Virus record (IMG/VR): IMGVR_UViG_3300029915_000165
Location: 1-20,471 of that record
Length of the DNA: 20,471 bases
Source: a virus
Strand: one strand, 5' to 3'
The notes under the pieces are model-generated. The model saw only the letters and a list, made by a program, of their open reading frames with translations, ran no database searches and was not told the DNA's origin. The first letter of the stretch is position 1; the number at the start of each line of letters is the position of its first letter. The translations under genes and the position numbers were made by a program. Of this stretch, positions 7,684 through 19,986 are shown piece after piece.

Positions 7684-10085
7684 GATTGAGCCCGTCCGAT
7701 TCGCTGGGTGCTGGCGTTCACCATCTTGTCGACCCGCCTTTGGCCTTCTGTGGAATCCGCGTAAATGGGACTGTAGATGTGGGTCACGGTGCTGGGAGGC
7801 GTTGCGCCGCCGTTCTGCTTGAGGCCCTGGGTGGCGTAGCTGCCGGCCGCGGTGTTCAACCGGCCAACTTGGGCGTTGTGGGCCGCGAGGTTGTAGCCGA
7901 GGTTTTGGTGGGCATTCGCCCAGTCGTTGAAGTCATGGACGGGTGCCACGAGTTCCGGGCCTGCCTCACCCATCAGGGCCAAGGTGGGGGTGTCGATCAG
8001 GCCGCCGACTGCGAATGCCCCGCCGGTCCCCGAGGCCACCTTGGAGGCTCCAGACGCAGCGGCGATGCTGCCCGTCATGACGGCGATCTCCGCAAGCGCC
8101 GCGGCCTCGCCCCCGACCAGGGAAAGGGGAGCCCAACTGGCCCATATTTCAGCGGTGGCCAGGGCTTCAGCCGATCCCATCTGGGCCGCGTTTGCAGTAG
8201 ACAGCGCCGACCCGAAAGCGGCTCCGGCCGCCGCCGTCATTAGATACTGCGAGGCCATCTTGGCCAGGGCCCCCACGGCAGAGGTTTCGATGCTCTTGCC
8301 GAAAGCCTTCACCGCCTGCCCCCCCTTGGCGGTGCCTTCCACGATGGATTCAATGCTGTGCGCCATCCCATCCTGGATCCCGTTCATTGCCTGGAGGGTG
8401 GTGGAGCGGAATTCATTGAACATGCCATCGCCCTTGGCGATGAAGTCCCGCATGCCGGCCTCGGCCCCGCCGGCAGCGGTGCCGTCCCAATGCACCTCGA
8501 CCATGTATTGGAGCGCGGCATGCGCGGACGCCCCACCCTTCGCTGTCTCGGCCTTGAGCCGCTCCTCTATCTGGCCGCGGGACATCTTTCCCTGGATTTC
8601 GCTCTGCTGGGCAAGGGACTTCTTGAGCTCTTCGAAGGCCTTTTTATTGGCCTCAGCCTCGGCTGCTTTCGTCGCTGCATCCTCGGCCAGGTGTTCGGCT
8701 TTCGCGGTTCGATTCAGGGCGGCGAGCTGATCCAGATAGAGCTTGTGCGCAGCTAGCCGGGCAGCAGCCGCGGCCTCCTGGCCCTCCGGAGTATCCTTCT
8801 TCTCGATCTCCGCGTAGATTTTGCGGTAGTTCTCTTTCATCTGGGCCAGGGCCTCGGCCTCGCCCCGTTGCTTCCTCTGCTCGATGGTGGTGGCATCCAT
8901 CGTCTTCAGGTCTTCGGCGCCCAGGTGGTTCGCCTGCTCCATGAGGTTCAGCCGGGTTTCGATGCCCTTCTTGGCCTCCTCTTCGGCCTTGCGGGCGGCT
9001 TCGCGGGCAGCTGTGGCTGCCTTCTTCTGGTCCTCCGCGGCCTTCCTCTTGGCCTCCTTGGCGGCATCGATCTCTTCCTTGGTTTGCGGCTGCGGGCCGG
9101 TGTGTGCCCCTCGCATCTGCTCCCGCTGCATCTCCCCGGCGGGGTCCTCCTTTCCATGCTGCAGGGCATATACGGAAGCATCCTCCTCCTTCATGATGTT
9201 GGCCAGGTACCCAGGAACCTGCATGAGAGCATCAATCGGGTTTTCGAGCTGATTCCAGCCCCGGATGATGCCGTCGAACATCTGGGCAAACCCAAGGTTG
9301 ACTCGCCCGAAGGCCAGGTCAAGGCCGCTGGTCTGCTCCGCGATGTCCTTCTTCACCTTGTCCATGGCAATGGACACGTCGCCCGCTTGGCGCTGCATCG
9401 CGATCATGCGGGCTATGGCGTTCTGATCGATGCCCTTGCCATACTTTTCAAGAGCATCCTTCCCATCGGCCAAGGTCTCGAAGAACCGGCGCATCTGGGG
9501 GATTTCGTTGATCGCTCCCCGGCCCAGCAGTTCCTGGGTGAGGATCAGCTTTTTGTTCTGGTCCGTGCAGGACTCAATGACGGCCAGGGACGCCTTCATG
9601 ACGTCCACCGGTTTCATCTGCATCAGCGCGGCCTGGGATGCGGCGATCCCATTGGCTATGAACACCTCGCTGTTGGACTTCATGGAACGGGTCACGCCCG
9701 TGAGCCAGTCGCCCAGTTGCTCGATGCTGCCCCCCGTCAGCTTCATGGTGGCGTCGAAGATGTTCAGCCGTTCAAGGGATTCCCCGGTCTGGAAGGAGAG
9801 CCCCTCAAAGGTGCGTGCCAGTTCATTGGTATGGGCGACAGCCTCGGGGATGGCGCTGATCGCCCCCTTGACCCCCTCCAGGAGCTTGGCGCCGGCCATG
9901 GCCCCAATGACAGCCATGGATCCGAAGCCGAGCGCCGCCCTGGAAAACCCGGCGGTCATCTGGTCCGCGGCGCTGGTGGCTTCCTTGGAGGTCGAGACAG
10001 CCTTTTCCCTGAACCGATCCAGGACGACCATGGCATCGCCCGCATCGCCAGTGATCACCACCTTCAGTTCATTGGCCACGGTCAA
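7680..10085 (-). CDS. Tail tape measure protein
   Basis: The 801-residue protein sets tail length and is ejected with the DNA in siphoviruses. Hydrophobic, Gly/Ala-rich stretches lie near residues 45-85 and 620-700. A long Lys/Glu/Ala coiled-coil runs at about 330-530. Near the C-terminus is GGLIDTPTLALMGEAGPEL, the GEAGPE type signature typical of tape measure proteins. At about 0.15 nm per residue the length suggests a tail near 120 nm. The TTG start at 10085 overlaps the stop of the preceding ORF; an alternative GTG lies at 10079. The gene ends in an ATGA overlap with the next gene. Assignment is firm from signature, size and position. Confidence 0.92.
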   Translation of the reverse strand: MTVANELKVVITGDAGDAMVVLDRFREKAVSTSKEATSAADQMTAGFSRAALGFGSMAVIGAMAGAKLLEGVKGAISAIPEAVAHTNELARTFEGLSFQTGESLERLNIFDATMKLTGGSIEQLGDWLTGVTRSMKSNSEVFIANGIAASQAALMQMKPVDVMKASLAVIESCTDQNKKLILTQELLGRGAINEIPQMRRFFETLADGKDALEKYGKGIDQNAIARMIAMQRQAGDVSIAMDKVKKDIAEQTSGLDLAFGRVNLGFAQMFDGIIRGWNQLENPIDALMQVPGYLANIMKEEDASVYALQHGKEDPAGEMQREQMRGAHTGPQPQTKEEIDAAKEAKRKAAEDQKKAATAAREAARKAEEEAKKGIETRLNLMEQANHLGAEDLKTMDATTIEQRKQRGEAEALAQMKENYRKIYAEIEKKDTPEGQEAAAAARLAAHKLYLDQLAALNRTAKAEHLAEDAATKAAEAEANKKAFEELKKSLAQQSEIQGKMSRGQIEERLKAETAKGGASAHAALQYMVEVHWDGTAAGGAEAGMRDFIAKGDGMFNEFRSTTLQAMNGIQDGMAHSIESIVEGTAKGGQAVKAFGKSIETSAVGALAKMASQYLMTAAAGAAFGSALSTANAAQMGSAEALATAEIWASWAPLSLVGGEAAALAEIAVMTGSIAAASGASKVASGTGGAFAVGGLIDTPTLALMGEAGPELVAPVHDFNDWANAHQNLGYNLAAHNAQVGRLNTAAGSYATQGLKQNGGATPPSTVTHIYSPIYADSTEGQRRVDKMVNASTQRIGRAQS

Positions 10086-10249
10086 TCCTCATCCAGGGTT
10101 GGTGCTTCGGGTGGTTTGCCGCCGTTGGCGTATAGCCCCAACGCGGAATGCCAGCAGTTCTGTGCGTGGCGGAGCGCCTTGTGGGACTCCTCCCGGAGGT
10201 GGTCCTCCAGGAGGGTCAGGGCGTCATCAAAGGGCATTTGGGCGGCCAT
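10082..10249 (-). CDS. Tail assembly chaperone T-like ORF
   Basis: A 55-residue ORF (start MAAQMPFDDALTLLEDH) lies between the first chaperone ORF and the tape measure gene, where lambda encodes the T part of gpG-T. Its frame is open back to a stop at 10415-10417, so it overlaps the 3' 139 bases of the upstream ORF. A minus-one shift would join the two. The residues just before the ATG (SSRAGGWE) look like a natural continuation, which favours a fusion product. No canonical X-XXY-YYZ heptamer was found in the overlap. Independent initiation at 10249, after a G-rich leader (GGTGGGTGGGAA), is the alternative. Confidence 0.65.
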   Translation of the reverse strand: MAAQMPFDDALTLLEDHLREESHKALRHAQNCWHSALGLYANGGKPPEAPTLDED

Positions 10250-12338: not shown

Positions 12339-13637
12339 CTAGCAGAGGGCGTCCAGGGTGGCCGCGAAGCTCTGGATGTGCCGGTAGTTGACGTCCACCA
12401 GTTGCGTGGAGATGACCCGGATCAGGCCCTGGGTGGCCAGGGTGTAGGGATCGGTCAGGATGTCCAGGGCGCCCCATTCCGCGATGATCAGTTCGCGCCA
12501 GACACCGTAGAGGATGGCGCTGAGAGCCGTCCCGCTTCCCTTGGTGAGGTTGTAGGGAACCTGGTTGGTGACGTAGGCCGGATAGCCGTTGACGTCGCCG
12601 ATGCCCTTGCTCCCGATGGCGGACTCCCACACGAACCGGGCTCCCGAAGCCTGGGCGACCAGGGTCTGTTTGAGGGCGCCGCGCACCTTGGTGTTGGTGA
12701 GGTAGGCCGCGTCCGAGGTATCCACGTTGCCCAAGGCGACCTGGGTTTCCATGGCAACCACGTGGGCGAAGTCCGGGGCCGCTCCATTGGTTCCGAGGGG
12801 GACGATGGTCAGCCCGGTGGCATTGGCGATGCCCATGGGCTGGTTGCTGGAACCGGCCCCGAACATGCCGGCCATATCCACCGCCAAGGCGTGGGACTGG
12901 GCCAGATCCTGCATGACGTAGGTGTCGGCGAAGCCAGCGGTCTGAGCGAGCAGCTGCTTGGAATAGGCGCGCTGGGCCATGAGCTGCTTGGGCGTCATGG
13001 TGAAGACCTGAAGGGTGGGGTCCCCGTTGGTGACGCCAGGGGCCACCGGATCATCCCCGGTCCACTGGGCTCCAGGGGTGCTGATCTGGCGGGCGAAGGG
13101 GATGTTCCCAACGCAGCCGGGGAGGAAGGTGCAGCCAGCCCTTCGCAGCGCCAGGGCCGCGTAGAGGAACTCGATGAAGGTCACCGGCTCCTGGGAGATC
13201 AGGCCGGAGGCCGTCGCCTGGACCGTGGCATCCAGGGCGCGCTTCATGCCCAGGTTGGTGGGTACGTAGATGCCCTTGGCTTCCCGGCCCAGGGTCTTCT
13301 GGATGTCCTGGGACACCTCACGCTCGAAGCAGTTGATGCCCGTGGCCTGGGCCATGATCGCCCGGGCGATGGAGTAGGACTTCTGCTCCTTCTCGGAGAA
13401 CTGCACCGCGGCGGCCGGGGTGGAAAAGGGGTTGCCGCTGCGCTCCACCAGCTTGTCGGTGATGATCTTGCGGACGGCATCCCCGCTCAGGCCCCGGCCC
13501 AGGGCCTCCCGGACTTCCTTGTCCAGGCCCAGGCGCGCGCCGGCGCCCTGGAGTTCCAGCGCCTCGTTCATGGCGTTGGCGCGGATTTCGTCGGGGGTCT
13601 GGGTGGTGGCCTGGTTGGCCGCATCCTTGGGTTCCAT
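12339..13637 (-). CDS. Internal start product: major capsid protein alone
   Basis: Within the fusion gene an in-frame ATG at 13637 (MEPKDAANQATTQ) follows AAGGAG at 13645-13650 with a seven-base spacer. This is as good as the best start signals in the window and falls exactly between the protease domain and the scaffold-like helix. It would give a 432-residue scaffold-plus-capsid protein. Phage heads need hundreds of capsid subunits and few proteases, so a nested start solves a stoichiometry problem, much as lambda C and Nu3 share one frame. The product is inferred; the signal is seen. Confidence 0.6.
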   Translation of the reverse strand: MEPKDAANQATTQTPDEIRANAMNEALELQGAGARLGLDKEVREALGRGLSGDAVRKIITDKLVERSGNPFSTPAAAVQFSEKEQKSYSIARAIMAQATGINCFEREVSQDIQKTLGREAKGIYVPTNLGMKRALDATVQATASGLISQEPVTFIEFLYAALALRRAGCTFLPGCVGNIPFARQISTPGAQWTGDDPVAPGVTNGDPTLQVFTMTPKQLMAQRAYSKQLLAQTAGFADTYVMQDLAQSHALAVDMAGMFGAGSSNQPMGIANATGLTIVPLGTNGAAPDFAHVVAMETQVALGNVDTSDAAYLTNTKVRGALKQTLVAQASGARFVWESAIGSKGIGDVNGYPAYVTNQVPYNLTKGSGTALSAILYGVWRELIIAEWGALDILTDPYTLATQGLIRVISTQLVDVNYRHIQSFAATLDALC

Positions 13638-14219
13638 CTCGGAACTCCTTATGAGATTGGCCGGGTGGCCGTTGGTGTTGAGATCCCTGGCCCCGGGCGT
13701 TCCGGGGTCCTGGGGGTTGGGGTCGAAGTTGCGGCCTACGCCGACACGGTCATCAGCCGGAATGGCGACCAGAGAGGCCTCCATGGGCGTCCAGGATGTG
13801 ATCCGGACCTGGTCCGGGGCATCTCCGACTCCCTTGGTGACCTGGTAGTCGTTGATGCGGTAGCCGACGCTGATCTTGGAGCGAATCCCATCCTGAACAT
13901 CGTTGAAGACGTCCTGCCCCTGCTGGGAGCGGGAGAAGTGGATGTCGCCCCGCATGATCCGGTCCGCGTCAAGTGTCACGTTTTCCAGGGCCCCGATGTG
14001 CTGATCCGGATCATGGCCTAGCAGGGCGGCCGCGCCGTTCTGCATCCGGGACATGTCCACTTCGCCGGGGTTGTGGCCCAGGGTTTCCACCCCGAACCAG
14101 CGCTCCACCGGGGTCTCGGAGGAGATGGCCACCCGGACCGTCCGGGCTTCGGTATTGACCGCGGCCCGGTCCAGGGCGACCGTCCGATACTGGATACCCT
14201 TGATCGACCTACTTTCCAT
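12339..14219 (-). CDS. Prohead protease fused to HK97-fold major capsid protein
   Basis: The 626-residue protein joins two functions. Residues 1-165 are an HK97-type (U35) prohead protease: LLGHD with His69, SKISVGY with Ser117, and SWTPMEASLVAIPAD at 142-156. Residues 195 onward are a scaffold-like helical region (about 200-330) and then the HK97-fold capsid protein, ending with ELIIAEWGALDILTDPYT and a strand near the C-terminus. The protease should cut the scaffold during head maturation. Start: ATG at 14219 lies six bases behind AAGGAGG (14226-14232) and overlaps the portal stop; the frame could extend to 14258 but that lacks this signal. An internal start at 13637 probably gives free capsid protein as well. 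Confidence 0.9.
   Translation of the reverse strand: MESRSIKGIQYRTVALDRAAVNTEARTVRVAISSETPVERWFGVETLGHNPGEVDMSRMQNGAAALLGHDPDQHIGALENVTLDADRIMRGDIHFSRSQQGQDVFNDVQDGIRSKISVGYRINDYQVTKGVGDAPDQVRITSWTPMEASLVAIPADDRVGVGRNFDPNPQDPGTPGARDLNTNGHPANLIRSSEMEPKDAANQATTQTPDEIRANAMNEALELQGAGARLGLDKEVREALGRGLSGDAVRKIITDKLVERSGNPFSTPAAAVQFSEKEQKSYSIARAIMAQATGINCFEREVSQDIQKTLGREAKGIYVPTNLGMKRALDATVQATASGLISQEPVTFIEFLYAALALRRAGCTFLPGCVGNIPFARQISTPGAQWTGDDPVAPGVTNGDPTLQVFTMTPKQLMAQRAYSKQLLAQTAGFADTYVMQDLAQSHALAVDMAGMFGAGSSNQPMGIANATGLTIVPLGTNGAAPDFAHVVAMETQVALGNVDTSDAAYLTNTKVRGALKQTLVAQASGARFVWESAIGSKGIGDVNGYPAYVTNQVPYNLTKGSGTALSAILYGVWRELIIAEWGALDILTDPYTLATQGLIRVISTQLVDVNYRHIQSFAATLDALC
13635..13650 (-). promoter_or_regulatory. 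Internal ribosome binding site in the protease-capsid gene
   Basis: On the minus strand AAGGAG is followed by TTCCGAG and ATG. The surrounding codons read LIRSSEMEPKD in the fusion frame, so the site is inside an open frame with no stop on either side. It is a candidate for producing capsid protein in excess over protease. Confidence 0.6.
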
Positions 14220-15897
14220 CGGTGCCCTCCTTGGGGGGATTGGTGTCCTCGCCGTCATTGTTCACGCCCGGTTCGCCCTCGGTCTCGCCATCGTTCTTGC
14301 CGGCCGGGGCCGGGGCCTGGATCAGGGGGCCCACCCGGAGGTTCAGGGCATCAATGAGGTCCTGCTCGTCCTTGAGTTCGTAGGCGACGTCCTCCCAGTC
14401 CAGGCCCTTCTTGGCCAGCACCTTGGTCCGGGTGTTCACGGCGCCCGCGATGGATTCCAGGTCTGCGGCGCTGTCCGCCCGGGGGTCAACCCAGTCCCAG
14501 CCACGGGGGTGGAACTGGTGGGCGCTGAACTGTTCCAGGGTCACTCCTGCGGGGAGCTTGAGGACCCCGGAGAGCCACGCGCCCAGCATGAATTCCGCGT
14601 GGGCCCGATCGCACAAGGTCTGGATGAGGCGGATCTGCTGTTCCTGGAAACTCTCGTGCTGGCTGATCGTGCCCTGCCGGATGGAGCTGAAGGAAACGCT
14701 GGTCAGGTCCCCCGCCAGCTCGTGGTAGGCGACGCCCAGGCCAGAGGCGATGCCCTTGAGCATGGACTTGCTGAAGGCCTCGAAGGCCGTGCTGGGGTGC
14801 TTGACGTCCGGGAACTCCACCTCGATGCCAGCGGGGATGCCCATGTAGGCGATCCCGGTGGAATTCCCGCCCAGGTTCTGGGCGGCCATGATGGGGTCCA
14901 CCAAGGCATTGCGCTCCAGCCGGTCATCATCGTCGCCGTGTTCGTCAATGGCGCCGTTGGGGCTCTTGAGGATGCCGGGCCGCTCACTCTCATGGCGGGC
15001 GCAGGCGACCTCGGCTTCCCAGTAGTGGCCCAGCATGGAGAGGATATACATGACGCTGGCGCAGGCCGGAACGCCACGGGACTGGATGGCGCGGTCCGGA
15101 TCCAGCCCGTGGATGATCTGGTCCGCCGGGATGATGATCTTCGCGCCGTAGGCCCAGCCGCCCACCATGCCGTTGCGGATCAGCTTCGGGTCCGTGAAGT
15201 GGTACGCCACGGGCTTGCCGTAGGTGTCCATCTCGATGCCCATAACGATCGGGTTGATCCCGGGCGAGCCGGCCCGGCTGTACGTGTGGTCCAGGAGGTC
15301 CGCATCCAGAAACGCAAGGGAGAACCCGAATTTGTTGGGCGCGCCCCGGACGATCCGGATGAACACCTCCCCATCCAGGGCCAGTGTCCGCACGAAGAGG
15401 CGGCACACGTCCTGAAAGGAATACCGGCCGCTCATATCGCAGTTGCCGGGCTTGCACCATTCCTGCCATGCGGCTTCGATCTTGGTGACGTAGGGATCCC
15501 GGAGCACGCCCTTGTTCTTCGACTTGAACAGGCTCTGCATGGTGACGCCGTTCGGGCCCACCACGTTGTTGCCAAGGAGCCGGAGGTAGTGCCTCATGAA
15601 CGGGTTGTTGTTGGCCAGGCGCCTGGAGTTGGCCCGGAGGGCCAGGGCATCGCGGCGGATTTCCTCATCCTTGGACCGCATGGCCATCAGGAACCCGCCG
15701 CCGTACATCGTGGCGCCGGTGTAGAAGGCGCCGATGCCCGGGCCCACGGCTCGCTTGGCCTTGACCGGGGCCTCGAAGGTGGTCACGCCCAGGGGAGCCT
15801 GGCGCTTGGGTTCGAAGGTGGCTCCGGCACTGAAGGACACGGACGCCCGGGTTTCGGGCCCGGTGAAGGCGGAGCGGACGCGGGAAAGGAGGCTCAT
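14209..15897 (-). CDS. Portal protein, lambda gpB type
   Basis: The 562-residue protein forms the dodecameric ring at the capsid vertex through which DNA enters and leaves. It starts MSLLSRVRSAFTGPETR at an ATG overlapping the preceding stop (ATGA), nine bases from the end of the upstream frame. Typical lambda-type portal words are present: RRLANNNPFMRHYLRLLGNNVVG near residues 90-114 (given here in parts: RRLANNNP, MRHYLRLLGNNVVG), SFQDVCRLFVRTLALDGE, and FLDADLLD. The last 30 residues are Gly/Glu/Asp-rich. Residues 1-65 are a variable basic N-terminus. The frame continues upstream to 16242 but that part lies in the neighbouring gene and is arginine/proline-rich shadow. Family assignment (PF05136-like) is from these motifs. 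Confidence 0.9.
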   Translation of the reverse strand: MSLLSRVRSAFTGPETRASVSFSAGATFEPKRQAPLGVTTFEAPVKAKRAVGPGIGAFYTGATMYGGGFLMAMRSKDEEIRRDALALRANSRRLANNNPFMRHYLRLLGNNVVGPNGVTMQSLFKSKNKGVLRDPYVTKIEAAWQEWCKPGNCDMSGRYSFQDVCRLFVRTLALDGEVFIRIVRGAPNKFGFSLAFLDADLLDHTYSRAGSPGINPIVMGIEMDTYGKPVAYHFTDPKLIRNGMVGGWAYGAKIIIPADQIIHGLDPDRAIQSRGVPACASVMYILSMLGHYWEAEVACARHESERPGILKSPNGAIDEHGDDDDRLERNALVDPIMAAQNLGGNSTGIAYMGIPAGIEVEFPDVKHPSTAFEAFSKSMLKGIASGLGVAYHELAGDLTSVSFSSIRQGTISQHESFQEQQIRLIQTLCDRAHAEFMLGAWLSGVLKLPAGVTLEQFSAHQFHPRGWDWVDPRADSAADLESIAGAVNTRTKVLAKKGLDWEDVAYELKDEQDLIDALNLRVGPLIQAPAPAGKNDGETEGEPGVNNDGEDTNPPKEGTDGK

Positions 15898-16469
15898 AGT
15901 GGGTTGAACCTCACAGGGACATGGGTGAAGAACGACTTGCCCCGCTGGCGCCCGACCACCCCGGCGTAGTAGGCCCGGAGCCGCATCAGTTCGGCATGGT
16001 CCATGTGCTTGGCCTCGATGCCGTTGTCCAGCTTGTATTCCGTGATGGACTCGCTCAGCCGGCCCTCGAGCACGGCGGTGATGGCGGCCAGGCACTTTTC
16101 GGCATGGGTCCGGGGGTCGTAACCGGGCGGGGGAGCCGCGGGGTTGATCCCAACCCGGAGTTCCCCGCGGTCGAGGGTCTGGCGCTGGGTTCCATCCGCG
16201 CTCTGCACGATGAGGGTCCAGTGGTATTCGCCAGGGGTCCACGCGGCTGTCTGGGCCGGGGTCTGGGCCAGGACAAAGCAGCTGTTCCCGTCAGCCATGG
16301 CCACCAGGACCACGGGCGCCGTCCCAGGGGCCGCGCCCACCAGGAACAGATACATGGTCAGGGTCCAACCGGGCCCGGCGGGATACTGGGATCGAAGGTC
16401 AATCGGATCCCAGGAGAAGCTGTCCCCGGCCTGGATCTTCTTTGGCAATCTGATCCACTTATCGTCCAT
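15894..16469 (-). CDS. Head protein upstream of portal, C-terminus gpW-like
   Basis: The 191-residue protein starts MDDKWIRLPKKIQAGDSFSW. Its first 115 residues are strand-rich with Pro/Gly turns (PGWTLTMYLFLVG, PGEYHWTLIVQSADG) and look like an immunoglobulin-like or beta-sandwich domain. The rest is helical: HAEKCLAAITAVLEGR, HMDHAELMRLRAYYAGVVG, then a basic end. That helical part resembles lambda gpW or DUF6148-type joining proteins, which also sit directly before the portal. It is the first gene after the terminator-dyad module at 16503-16557. Start: the frame extends to 16661 through non-coding sequence; the ATG at 16469 fits the leader, although its ribosome binding site (GAAAGTTGG) is weak. 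The gpW link is inference. Confidence 0.65.
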   Translation of the reverse strand: MDDKWIRLPKKIQAGDSFSWDPIDLRSQYPAGPGWTLTMYLFLVGAAPGTAPVVLVAMADGNSCFVLAQTPAQTAAWTPGEYHWTLIVQSADGTQRQTLDRGELRVGINPAAPPPGYDPRTHAEKCLAAITAVLEGRLSESITEYKLDNGIEAKHMDHAELMRLRAYYAGVVGRQRGKSFFTHVPVRFNPL

Positions 16470-16502
16470 GGGTCCAACTTTCAGACCTGGGCGGCCGAGG
16501 AC

Positions 16503-16523
16503 TGTTGCTCTCGCATAGCAACG
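16503..16523. promoter_or_regulatory. Dyad operator candidate, head operon leader
   Basis: The sequence GTTGCTCT-CGC-ATAGCAAC (16504-16522) has 8-base arms around a 3-base centre with one arm mismatch. It matches the dyad at 19152-19170 at 16 of 19 positions with identical geometry. It lies 14 bases after a GC-rich hairpin and 35 bases before the first head gene. A dimeric regulator site is the likely meaning; no clear -10 box was seen beside it. Confidence 0.6.
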
Positions 16524-16536
16524 CCCCAAACGAACA

Positions 16537-16557
16537 CCGCCCGCGGGAGGCGGGCGG
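16537..16557 (-). terminator. GC-rich hairpin ending the lysis operon
   Basis: Perfect 8-bp arms CCGCCCGC (16537-16544) and GCGGGCGG (16550-16557) enclose a five-base loop, 25 bases after the stop of the last lysis-block gene. On the minus strand the stem is followed by TGTTCGTTTGG, only moderately U-rich. It fits a weak intrinsic terminator between the lysis and head operons. Confidence 0.6.
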
Positions 16558-16581
16558 CGGGGTGCGGGGGCGCAGGTGGGC

Positions 16582-16920
16582 CTATGGGGGGGGATCCTTG
16601 GCATCGCAGAAGTCAGGGACGGTGCAGCCCTTTCCTTGCAGGAAGCCCAGGAGGTGGGCATGGGACCGTTCGACAGCGCCGACCTGAAGCTGCAACTTGC
16701 CGATTTCCTTGAAGGCCGCTTCGATCTTCGCCACCACCATCGTTTGCAGGAGCTGCTCTACCTGGAGCAGCTGGGCCTTCTGATCCTGCTCGCGCTGCTC
16801 ATCCTGCCGCTGGCGGTCCTGATCCCGGGCCCGGCGATCAGCTTTGAGGGTGGCCCAGATCGAAACCACGCTGGTGACGATCAGGCCAAGGATGCTGATG
16901 AAAATGCCGAGGGGGCTCAC
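16582..16920 (-). CDS. Small membrane protein with one helix and coiled coil
   Basis: The 112-residue protein begins MSPLGIFISILGLIVTSV at a GTG six bases from the preceding stop. Residues 3-25 form a membrane helix; a highly charged stretch rich in RDQDRQRQDEQREQ follows, then a helix and GFLQGKGCTVPDFC near the end. The layout (N-terminal helix, cytoplasmic coiled coil) is seen in some phage holin-like and antiholin proteins and in small membrane accessories of lysis cassettes. No Shine-Dalgarno sequence is obvious, and translational coupling to the gene before it is likely. Exact function unknown. Confidence 0.65.
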   Translation of the reverse strand: MSPLGIFISILGLIVTSVVSIWATLKADRRARDQDRQRQDEQREQDQKAQLLQVEQLLQTMVVAKIEAAFKEIGKLQLQVGAVERSHAHLLGFLQGKGCTVPDFCDAKDPPP

Positions 16921-16923
16921 GCG

Positions 16924-17328
16924 TTAGGCCTGGGGGAGGAGAGAGCGCACAGGCGCGGCGGGGATGGTGACGATTTCGGGCGCGGAGGGGAACGGCGCAG
17001 GAACAGGGACCGGATCCACCGCGGCGGCGACCTTCAAGGCATCGGCCGCGACCTGGGCGTCGATCCGAGCCTCCAGCGCCTTGATCTGTTTCACCAGGGC
17101 CGCGATATCGCTCTGGACGTCCAGCTTGATGCTGGTGTAGATCCCCTCAAGGTCGCAGGTGGCCAGTTCCAGCAAGGCCTTGGCCCGCTTCTCCTCGGCG
17201 GCGACCGCCGCGGCTCGGGCGGCGAACCACGCCTTGATGGGCGGCCAGAAGTGGACGGCCAGGGCCACTGCCAGGCAGATGAAGGCCCACACGATGTGGG
17301 TTAGGTGGGTGGTGACGATGTCAGGCAT
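16924..17328 (-). CDS. Small membrane protein with one helix, lysis block
   Basis: The 134-residue protein begins MPDIVTTHLTHIVWAFI. Residues 10-30 form a membrane helix (AFICLAVALAVHFW), followed by an Ala/Glu/Lys helix (AAVAAEEKRAKALLELA), a second predicted coiled coil around ALVKQIKALEARI and a Pro/Val/Ala-rich end. The ATG has a strong AAGGAGG five bases upstream. It lies between the spanin-like gene and the other one-helix protein. A holin, antiholin or second spanin-related role is possible; nothing in the residues settles it. Confidence 0.65.
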   Translation of the reverse strand: MPDIVTTHLTHIVWAFICLAVALAVHFWPPIKAWFAARAAAVAAEEKRAKALLELATCDLEGIYTSIKLDVQSDIAALVKQIKALEARIDAQVAADALKVAAAVDPVPVPAPFPSAPEIVTIPAAPVRSLLPQA

Positions 17329-17343
17329 GCAGACCTCCTTGGG

Positions 17344-18066
17344 TCAGAAGCGCCACAGGGCGGTGCCCTGGGCTTCGATGGTGGTGTTGCCGTTCCCGAT
17401 GGGCCTACGGACCAAGGCCACGGCCACCCGGAAGGGGCCAAGGTCCCGCTCGGCGGCCGGTCCAAGGGTGCCGTTGCTGCCGTAGGTGATGCCCGCGGCC
17501 CAGGGCCTCACAGTGCTCTGCAGGGCGCCCACCACCACCCGGAGGCCGGCCGCCTCCTGCCGGTAGCTGTCGGCGGACTGCTGGAAGGCGGCGGCCTCAT
17601 CGGTCTTGGTGGCCAGCAGGGCCTGGGTGCTGGCCAGGACCGTCTTGGTGTCGGCCAGGTCCCGGGCCAGGTCATCGATCAGCTTGCGGTCCGGTGCCAC
17701 CTCTGCCAGGGACGGAGCAGCATCTGCCACAAGGCCAGGAACAGGTTTGGCTCCGGGGGCAGGTTGAACAGGACGGGAATGGAACTTGGCCACTGGCGCC
17801 CAGTCCTGATCCACTGCGGCATCGTCTCCCTTGAGCGGCGCGGTGTCTTTGACAACCTGGTCCTGCTGGTCCTTCGCTTTCGTGCCATCAGCCGCCCCCT
17901 TGGCGTAGCCCTTTGCCCCGGTCTGGTCATCCTTTGCCGCCTGGGCCATGCCGGCGGTGACCTGGTGCTGGACGTGCCGGGCCCGCGCGGCGTAGCCGAT
18001 CCAGAGGCAGACGGCGGCCAGGATTGCGATGCCGATCAGCGTGAGATGGGACTTGATCCAGGTCAT
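17344..18066 (-). CDS. Inner-membrane spanin candidate with beta-rich C-terminus
   Basis: The 240-residue protein begins MTWIKSHLTLIGIAILAA. One N-terminal helix (residues 8-26) anchors it with the bulk predicted in the periplasm. Residues about 30-100 are Ala/Lys/Asp/Gln-rich, residues 125-185 form a coiled coil (LIDDLARDLADTKTVLAS), and residues 187-240 are beta-strand-like, ending ALWRF. Topology and place behind the endolysin and holin candidates fit an Rz-type i-spanin that disrupts the outer membrane in the last step of lysis. The strand-rich end is unusual for Rz, and no Rz1-like lipoprotein frame was found inside or next to it. Confidence 0.6.
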   Translation of the reverse strand: MTWIKSHLTLIGIAILAAVCLWIGYAARARHVQHQVTAGMAQAAKDDQTGAKGYAKGAADGTKAKDQQDQVVKDTAPLKGDDAAVDQDWAPVAKFHSRPVQPAPGAKPVPGLVADAAPSLAEVAPDRKLIDDLARDLADTKTVLASTQALLATKTDEAAAFQQSADSYRQEAAGLRVVVGALQSTVRPWAAGITYGSNGTLGPAAERDLGPFRVAVALVRRPIGNGNTTIEAQGTALWRF

Positions 18067-18069
18067 GGC

Positions 18070-18270
18070 CTACTCAGCCTTCTTGGCGAGCAGGACCTGC
18101 TTGGTGCTCAGTGCGTGGATCTGGTTCTTCAGACCGTTTCCGGGCATCACCAGGGTGGTCTCCGCCTCGAGGCAGCAAAAGTTCTCATCGCCGGAGATGG
18201 ATTTGACCTCCAACTCCAAAGTGACAATGTCACCGGCCTTGATGAGGGTTCCGTTCTTGTCGTGGCTCAT
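18070..18270 (-). CDS. Small beta-rich phage protein, unknown function
   Basis: The 66-residue protein begins MSHDKNGTLIKAGDIVTLE. TAGGAGG, formed partly by the previous stop codon, stands five bases before the ATG, the clearest start signal in the lysis block. The sequence has an SH3- or KOW-like pattern: DxxGxxIxxGDxVxLxxxV, then a central FCCLEAETT segment and a closing STKQVLLAKK strand. Similar short proteins are common in Gram-negative phages next to lysis or early genes, without a known job. Paired cysteines (CC) in the middle are a noticeable feature. Confidence 0.7.
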   Translation of the reverse strand: MSHDKNGTLIKAGDIVTLELEVKSISGDENFCCLEAETTLVMPGNGLKNQIHALSTKQVLLAKKAE

Positions 18271-18279
18271 GAATTCCTC

Positions 18280-18525
18280 CTAGTCCCCGTTGGGACCGCT
18301 TTGCTTGTGATAGGCCACGCCGGCGAGACCCGCCACGGAGCCCGAGATGATGCCGAGGGCGCCCACTAGGCCGCCGTCAACGTGCTGGTCAAGACAGGCT
18401 TGGTACCAGACCGCGAGGGTCAGGACCGTAAGGCAGAAACAAAGCGTGCAGCCCGCGATCCACATCAGGGCCCGGCGAACTTCCTCCGGCTGGTCCGTTC
18501 GGATCAGCCTCTGGAAAAGGCTCAT
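18280..18525 (-). CDS. Two-helix membrane protein, holin candidate
   Basis: The 81-residue protein starts MSLFQRLIRTDQPEEVRR. It has two membrane helices, about residues 20-43 (MWIAGCTLCFCLTVLTLAVW) and 53-74 (LVGALGIISGSVAGLAGVAY), with a short loop and a charged hydrophilic tail. Size and two-helix layout directly behind the endolysin gene fit a class II holin that would release the muramidase through the inner membrane. The frame extends upstream to 18612 into the endolysin gene; the inner ATG with GGAG nine bases upstream is preferred. A hairpin at 18540-18558 sits immediately before this ribosome binding site. Confidence 0.65.
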   Translation of the reverse strand: MSLFQRLIRTDQPEEVRRALMWIAGCTLCFCLTVLTLAVWYQACLDQHVDGGLVGALGIISGSVAGLAGVAYHKQSGPNGD

Positions 18526-18539
18526 GCTCTTCTGCTCCA

Positions 18540-18558
18540 ACTGGCCAATACGGCCAGT
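18540..18558 (-). promoter_or_regulatory. Hairpin in the holin leader
   Basis: Perfect 7-bp arms ACTGGCC (18540-18546) and GGCCAGT (18552-18558) enclose a five-base loop. On the transcribed strand the stem ends one base before TTGGAG, the ribosome binding site of the holin candidate. It lies in the short gap between endolysin and holin genes. It could tune holin translation, in the way structured leaders control lambda S. Confidence 0.45.
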
Positions 18559-18601
18559 CGTAGGGGTGCTCTCCGTAGGGGTCGCCGGGATCAAACATGG
18601 C

Positions 18602-19102
18602 TCAGGCGGCATCGGGAATTTCCTCGGCCCGCTTCTCCCACCCGTTCAGGAACTTCCCTTCTCTGGGATGGGCCTGGGCCACCGCGATGTAGTGCTCCCG
18701 GGCGGCCTCGCATAGGGCTTGGAGCAGCTGGTTTGGTTCCTGGGCGTTGGTGGCCGCCAGGGTAGCAGGGCCCCACACGCCGTCATCGGCTACGCCCAGG
18801 ATTTTTTGGAGGCATCTGACCTCGGTCCCGAGACCGCAGTCCACCCCGATATCAAACAGCTTCGAAGCGACCCTCTGATCAGAGACCCCGTCATAGCGCC
18901 AGTATTCCGGCGAGCCATAGACCTGCAGCAACTGGTCCGGAGTGATGTTCCACAGCTGGTCCAGTGTGGTGAAGCCGAGCAGCCGCTGGGCGGCTATGAA
19001 GGTCACCCCATGGTTGGTCGCTCCGCCAGGGTCGGCCGAATCGTTGACCTTGCCGCCCTCGTTACGGAGGAGGAAAGGCATTGCAGCGGAGAGCGTGGCC
19101 AC
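18602..19102 (-). CDS. Endolysin, GH108 N-acetylmuramidase with PG-binding C-terminus
   Basis: The 166-residue enzyme cleaves the glycan chains of peptidoglycan. After an initiating GTG the protein reads MATLSAAMPFLLRNEGG; Glu15 in the EGG motif is the predicted catalytic acid, followed by DPGGATNHGVTF, the GH108 signature. Residues about 85-166 match the PG-binding-3 type domain (KLFDIGVDCG, LQKILGVADDGVWGPAT). No signal peptide or SAR helix is present, so release depends on a holin. Start: GTG at 19102 is eight bases behind GGAGG (19111-19115) and gives the normal family N-terminus; the frame open to 19339 overlaps the preceding gene. Confidence 0.92.
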   Translation of the reverse strand: MATLSAAMPFLLRNEGGKVNDSADPGGATNHGVTFIAAQRLLGFTTLDQLWNITPDQLLQVYGSPEYWRYDGVSDQRVASKLFDIGVDCGLGTEVRCLQKILGVADDGVWGPATLAATNAQEPNQLLQALCEAAREHYIAVAQAHPREGKFLNGWEKRAEEIPDAA

Positions 19103-19150
19103 GGGGAGGACCTCCAGAGACCCCAGAATGGAAGTCGGCCCCAGCCGGTG

Positions 19151-19171
19151 CGTTGCTATGGGATAGCAACG
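19151..19171. promoter_or_regulatory. Perfect dyad, operator candidate, lysis operon leader
   Basis: CGTTGCTAT (19151-19159) and ATAGCAACG (19163-19171) form perfect 9-bp arms around GGG. The same dyad with three changes recurs in the head operon leader at 16503-16523. It is 10 bases after a terminator-like hairpin and 48 bases before the endolysin GTG. Two such sites before two operons suggest binding by a dimeric phage regulator; a -10-like CATTCT lies about 20 bases downstream but is poor. Confidence 0.6.
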
Positions 19172-19181
19172 GGCATGGGAA

Positions 19182-19201
19182 GGCCCCCAGTGAAGGGGGC
19201 C
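19182..19201 (-). terminator. GC-rich hairpin ending the small-gene block
   Basis: Perfect 7-bp arms GGCCCCC (19182-19188) and GGGGGCC (19195-19201) enclose six bases, 16 bases after the stop of the 90-residue gene. The following minus-strand sequence TTCCCATG has no U run, so Rho-independent termination would be weak. Its place before the dyad matches the module at 16503-16557. Confidence 0.5.
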
Positions 19202-19204
19202 GAT

Positions 19205-19212
19205 CCTGGACA
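19205..19212 (-). repeat. Stop-associated octamer TGTCCAGG, copy 4
   Basis: TGTCCAGG on the minus strand, five bases after the TAG of the 90-residue gene. It is the last of four such copies behind consecutive genes and stands at the end of the small-gene block, just before the hairpin at 19182-19201. Confidence 0.65.
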
Positions 19213-19217
19213 AGAGC

Positions 19218-19514: not shown

Positions 19515-19522
19515 CCTGGACA
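19515..19522 (-). repeat. Stop-associated octamer TGTCCAGG, copy 3
   Basis: TGTCCAGG on the minus strand, four bases after the TAG at 19527-19529. Together with the preceding CC it makes CCTGTCCAGG, a short inverted repeat, as in copy 2. Confidence 0.65.
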
Positions 19523-19526
19523 GGTG

Positions 19527-19957: not shown

Positions 19958-19975
19958 AGGCTCCGGGCGGAGCCT
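19958..19975 (-). promoter_or_regulatory. Intergenic hairpin beside octamer copy 2
   Basis: Perfect 7-bp arms AGGCTCC (19958-19964) and GGAGCCT (19969-19975) with a four-base loop lie between the 72- and 137-residue genes and overlap the last bases of octamer copy 2. There is no U tract, so a processing or stability element is more likely than a terminator. Confidence 0.45.
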
Positions 19976-19980
19976 GGACA
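19973..19980 (-). repeat. Stop-associated octamer TGTCCAGG, copy 2
   Basis: TGTCCAGG on the minus strand, six bases after the TAG at 19987-19989. Its last three bases form part of the hairpin at 19958-19975. Confidence 0.65.
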
Positions 19981-19986
19981 GGTGCG

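Follow-up and report, generated by a model that had tools for sequence, protein, structure and literature searches.

In phage Mu, the site for Mor is centred at -43.5 and overlaps the -35 element (PMC4287176), and at the late promoters, the site for C is found upstream of the -35 element (PMC4461284). In the Ogr/Delta system of phage P2, several late operons share an inverted-repeat activator site of the form TGT-N12-ACA (PMC3931495). The SAS/ESAS elements of the cluster K mycobacteriophages, as far as the available part of their published description goes, comprise a repeated short motif with an inverted-repeat extension before selected genes (PMC3203893).

The locus considered here lies in an IMG/VR fragment of 20,471 bases, the whole of which is referred to as the window, from a little-known, uncultured group of temperate phages of soil and bog. 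It carries two dyads, one ahead of a lysis block and one ahead of a head block; the dyads and the surrounding genes are read on the minus strand, which an earlier plus-strand spelling of the dyads hides. As with the Mor/C promoters of Mu (Pm, Plys, PI, PP and Pmom), a dyad-symmetric site precedes separate late units, that for lysis included, and in Mu, too, the endolysin gene is separated from the gene before it by a hairpin and a promoter region. The predicted dyad centre of -43, which depends on the weak evidence of an A-n3-T match, would resemble the -43.5 of Mor. In contrast, the dyad sequences are unrelated to those of Mu, and the parts of these genomes seen have a lambda-type portal, a terminase of the lambda gpA kind and a tyrosine integrase, and no Mu transposition. 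Membership in the Mor/C system is not established.

The dyads differ from the sites of Ogr/Delta in both motif and spacing, reading GTTGCT-N7-AGCAAC with a predicted centre at -43, whereas the activator sites of P2 late promoters are found further upstream, at about -55. Assignment to the Ogr system fails on the motif, since no copy reads TGT-N12-ACA. The stoperators of mycobacteriophage L5 are outlying repressor sites, some two dozen in number and asymmetric. Like them, the dyads are short identical sites with the same orientation as transcription in intergenic gaps of a temperate phage; unlike them, they number two, are palindromic and are tied to late blocks. SAS is a translation-associated element that abuts many gene starts. 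The resemblance to SAS/ESAS, again within the part of the description available, is that of a repeated short motif before selected genes, but here there are only two sites, 34-49 nt upstream and tied to late blocks.

Dyads, hairpins and genes of the window

The features of the two blocks, in the order in which they are read, are as follows.

19201-19182, minus strand: GC-rich hairpin before the lysis dyad, without a T tract; not conserved in L012/L013
19170-19152, minus strand: lysis dyad GTTGCTATCCCATAGCAAC, a perfect 8-3-8 dyad with the endolysin start 49 nt on; kept in relatives
18602..19102, minus strand: endolysin with glycosyl hydrolase 108 and peptidoglycan-binding domains, first gene of the lysis block
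18280..18612, minus strand: small membrane protein, holin-like by position, without a family match
17344..18066, minus strand: spanin (Rz)-like protein by position, with only a weak PHROG Rz match (E 0.13)
16582..16920, minus strand: last gene of the lysis block, a membrane-anchored small protein of 112 aa with only weak holin matches
16559-16535, minus strand: GC-rich hairpin before the head dyad, terminator-like, with a 10-bp stem and a T-rich tail; G003 and L011 lack one of its arms
16522-16504, minus strand: head dyad GTTGCTATGCGAGAGCAAC, 7/8 arm pairs, with the head-joining ATG 34 nt on; kept in relatives
15894..16469, minus strand: head-tail joining protein (PHROG 5774), first gene of the head block
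14209..15957, minus strand: portal protein, lambda family
12339..14258, minus strand: fusion of prohead protease and major capsid protein

Thus, in the minus sense, accessory genes are followed by a hairpin, a dyad, the endolysin gene (GTG start at 19102) and the lysis genes to 16582, and then by a second hairpin and dyad and the genes for head joining (ATG at 16469), the portal and the protease-capsid fusion. The dyad begins 11 nt after the hairpin on the lysis side and 12 nt after it on the head side, and the one mismatch of the head dyad is an A-G at positions 7/13. The original prediction held that the two dyads agree at 16 of 19 bases and that the window contains no third copy. The agreement is correct, as are the places and distances given for it, and a scan of the window with up to 3 mismatches produced four matches, namely both dyads on both strands. 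Furthermore, apart from the two dyads, no GTTGC-N4..16-GCAAC is present in the window. A repeated dyad with 6-bp arms and any loop of 0-12 is nonetheless present in 32 of 100 shuffled windows; a dyad pair within one window, taken alone, is only mildly unusual, and consequently, the argument against chance is conservation in relatives.

As a separate matter, the stretch at 17344-18270 is variable: between lineages, its Rz-like gene shows an identity of only 32-35%, while the rest of the lysis cassette is conserved, and a 66-aa gene within it is found in the window lineage only.

Conservation in related phages

Relatives were gathered by their endolysin and portal proteins and not by the dyad. 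The close relatives comprise three lineages, the window type (L003-L005 and L007) and two others defined by portal identity, of which one has a portal ~95% identical (L008-L011 and L014) and the other a portal ~87% identical (L012, L013 and L015). Cassette and head proteins are 32-95% identical among them. Wherever the contig of a close relative from any of the three lineages reaches the sites, the dyads lie before the same two genes and in the same orientation; this holds for every close IMG/VR relative with the sites covered, and none was found with the same gene order and the dyads absent. Every record that covers both sites has exactly two copies, with identical orientation relative to the genes, and a search of the related records revealed none beyond these.

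Across relatives, the lysis copies are GTTGCTATCCCATAGCAAC or GTTGCTACCGGAGAGCAAC, and the head copies are GTTGCTATGCGAGAGCAAC, GTTGCTATGCGATAGCAAC or GTTGCTATCCAAGAGCAAC. All read GTTGCT-N7-AGCAAC: the 12 arm bases are constant in every copy, variation is confined to the central seven, and half-sites GTTGCTMY face each other, 11 bp apart with 3 bp between them. The arms of the window are 24/24 identical to those of G003 and likewise to those of G004, while fourfold-degenerate sites of the adjacent genes are 57-83% identical in the same comparisons; by our own arithmetic, the chance of 24 constant arm bases at an identity of ~0.69 per site is near 1e-4 for a single comparison. Position, copy number, orientation and arm invariance are direct observations in these records, and the paired dyads before the two late blocks are, judged from sequence, a real, conserved, operator-like element.

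The flanks conserved at the two sites differ, and each dyad stands a short and almost constant distance from the gene start. On the lysis side, a block, GGGGCCTTNCCATG, is conserved ahead of the dyad (shorter in L013), and ACTTCCATTCTGGGGTCTCTGGAG after it is invariant; in front of the head dyad, all lineages share CGTTTGGGG. The hairpins behave differently. The lysis hairpin is reduced to one arm in L012 and absent from L013, and the head hairpin of G003 and L011 lacks one arm, yet the dyads are intact in all four. It had been proposed that both blocks are led by a shared layout of hairpin, gap, dyad and gene. In the window, this layout stands, with its places and distances, but its hairpin part does not hold in L012, L013, G003 and L011, where a hairpin is missing or broken, and a conserved hairpin with a T tract before the dyad, as a module of intrinsic terminator and promoter would have, was not found. 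Because the hairpins are not conserved, the selected unit is the dyad rather than a terminator-dyad module.

The pattern of variation in the copies also bears on an improbable alternative in which the dyads act as RNA, forming a stem-loop near the 5' end of late transcripts that is bound by an antiterminator or other RNA-binding protein, or that is processed or stabilizing. The lysis copy of the window folds well (-10.3 kcal/mol, z -6.5), and a 6-bp stem is kept in all copies. However, no arm contains a compensatory change, the loss of inner pairs is likewise uncompensated, and the copies from L012 and L013 fold no better than shuffles, so that the evidence favours a site read as DNA sequence by a dimer over a structural hairpin. 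Furthermore, if the starts predicted below are right, the dyad would lie outside the transcript of its own promoter.

Records that reach further upstream, L030 (= G005) and L031 (= G004), have the order TerS, TerL, accessory genes in some, dyad 1, lysis cassette, dyad 2 and head genes, and in G005 and G003 an integrase C-terminus, a 91-residue protein and a minor-tail-Z-like protein are seen ahead of TerS. In the distant relatives L018 and L019, on the other hand, the head-joining gene directly follows TerL; no dyad was seen in L016-L019. Comparison of the two orders indicates that in this clade the lysis cassette is situated between the terminase and head genes, with dyad 2 at the point at which a new start is required for the head block. 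The accessory genes between TerL and dyad 1 differ among strains, and the dyad is kept each time; in L004, L012, L013 and L015, the lysis dyad is retained despite different accessory genes right up to it.

A heptamer, YTGTCCA, is present at or just after stop codons between these variable accessory genes, at 19207-19213, 19517-19523 and 19975-19981 on the minus strand of the window, and in relatives at L013 1694 and 1967, L015 2688 and 2961, L036 3599 and 3837, and L005 120 and 1232. It may mark cassette boundaries at which genes are exchanged.

It is highly improbable that the dyads are non-regulatory, whether as the termini of a lysis cassette that moves or recombines (direct repeats from insertion) or as REP-like dispersed repeats. 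They do stand at either end of precisely the cassette that is absent, between TerL and the head gene, from L018 and L019, and similar palindromes with compensated arms are dispersed, among the matches listed, in unrelated, mostly lower-GC IMG/VR contigs. But the cassette has never been seen without both dyads, excised or inverted, and no further copies are scattered through G003, even in its non-phage-like end. In addition, two copies per record with invariant arms are unlike the compensated arms of REP-like repeats, and the separate conserved flanks and the near-constant spacing to the genes also count against such a reading.

Among the matches listed, several palindromes like GTATGTTGCTATGCCATAGCAACATAC occur in L060/L066 (G011), L058 (G013), L103 (G019), L061, L093, L106 and L084, and the compensated arm variants in those contigs, GTTGCGAT..ATCGCAAC and GTCGCTAT..ATAGCGAC, mark a REP-like family of dispersed palindromes. 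Outside the known clade, the listed matches of an IMG/VR scan with the dyad pattern resembled chance or longer palindromes of this REP-like kind, and a scan that required GGGG ahead of the dyad returned the known clade and four unrelated matches. The region gave no blastn match to named phages. A search for hosts or prophages across 84,980 species, with one genome per species, using portal and TerL alignments with two short patterns each, a design by which prophages could be missed, confirmed none. In G003, at ~24330-26100 (L029 ~8330-10100), truncated 3' halves of tRNAs, one of them tRNA-Pro(TGG)-like, precede a second, P4-like integrase gene (24769-26100); a further integrated element next to this prophage probably has its attachment site there.

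Predicted promoter geometry and a proposed shared late regulator

No sigma70-type promoter was found near the dyads, which is as expected of an activator-dependent start. When the six site sequences are aligned on the dyad, A at +23 and T at +27 are common to all, and this A-n3-T has the spacing of the key -10 bases, -11A and -7T. The speculative -10-like hexamers that contain these bases are the following.

19125..19130, minus strand: CATTCT, lysis site, dyad +22 to +27, possible -10-like hexamer
16477..16482, minus strand: GAAAGT, head site, dyad +22 to +27, possible -10-like hexamer

Among 31 relative shifts tried, the A and T match only in the true register, which puts the support at no more than about 1 in 31, and both hexamers are poor ones. 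If A-n3-T is the -10, the dyad centre would, on this thin support, be at -43.

Taken together, these results have led to a model, to which a probability of roughly 0.55 is given, in which both dyads are operators of a single DNA-binding regulator that acts as a dimer and is most likely a late activator encoded by the phage, with weak promoters downstream and a centre near -43. In this model, a homodimer would bind the inverted half-sites GTTGCTMY ahead of the two late units, the lysis cassette and the head genes, and the bound activator would recruit host RNA polymerase to the weak promoters just downstream of the dyads. Because this clade has its lysis cassette after the terminase genes and ahead of the head genes, the head block would need its own start, and dyad 2 would place the lysis and head genes under one switch. 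Protein binding, activation, the position of the -10 and the identity of the regulator are all predictions here. A shared late regulator with separate lysis and head units had been suggested by analogy with Mu C. The regulator remains the best fit, given two copies in one orientation, 34-49 nt before the first genes, with arms invariant in three lineages; the specific analogy with Mu C is more tentative. Against a late activator, the terminase and tail genes have no dyad copy, and thus the proposed regulator would not control all late genes.

A rather unlikely alternative is that a lysogeny repressor, or a host repressor, uses the dyads as operators and so silences the late lysis and head genes in the prophage, in the manner of the L5 stoperators. 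The group is temperate, with an integrase upstream of the terminase genes, and a repressor site would look alike: homodimeric repressors, just like activators, typically have operators of such a kind, 19 bp long with half-sites spaced by 11 bp. On the other hand, there are two sites only, and no copy occurs near the integrase or terminase genes in the available sequence, which does not extend to the immunity region, the expected place of the main operators. A repressor would also be less needed, since the late genes of a lysogen are normally silent for lack of an activator or antiterminator.

For the activator model, the protein itself has been sought. A search for a Mor/C-like or other DNA-binding gene had been proposed; ten related records, whose coverage excludes the early and immunity region, encode no member of the Mor/C family (PF08765). 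Nor do these records, again without the early region, contain an Ogr zinc finger (PF04606) above cut-off, the only matches being 7-residue chance ones inside TerL. By position only, the sole candidate is the helical 91-residue protein encoded between the integrase and the minor-tail/terminase genes (L030 578-853, G003 86-358 and L035 175-447), a region that the window-lineage contigs end short of. Between L030 and L035, this protein is 93% conserved, while the adjacent minor-tail gene is 77% and the integrase end 41% identical, which suggests that it travels with the late module. It has no meaningful sequence match in Pfam, PHROG or PDB, no phage match and no match to the Mor/C profile, and its structural model is helical, of modest confidence (pLDDT 73) and without fold relatives. 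A more specific and quite unlikely version of the model has a new, unrelated family of late activators, of which this protein could be an example, acting in these uncultured temperate phages on two matching class-II-like promoters, one for the lysis genes and the other for head transcripts that almost lack a leader.

Under the main model, the dyads would be a new example of an already known type of late-gene control, working like Mu C or P2 Ogr. If the predicted -10 is right, the head mRNA would begin at or beside its own ATG and would be nearly leaderless. For this uncharacterised phage clade, the dyads provide a candidate pair of operators for late control, and their defined half-site could be used as bait for the regulator. 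Furthermore, the pair suggests how a lysis cassette located between the terminase and head genes can share the switch of the head genes.
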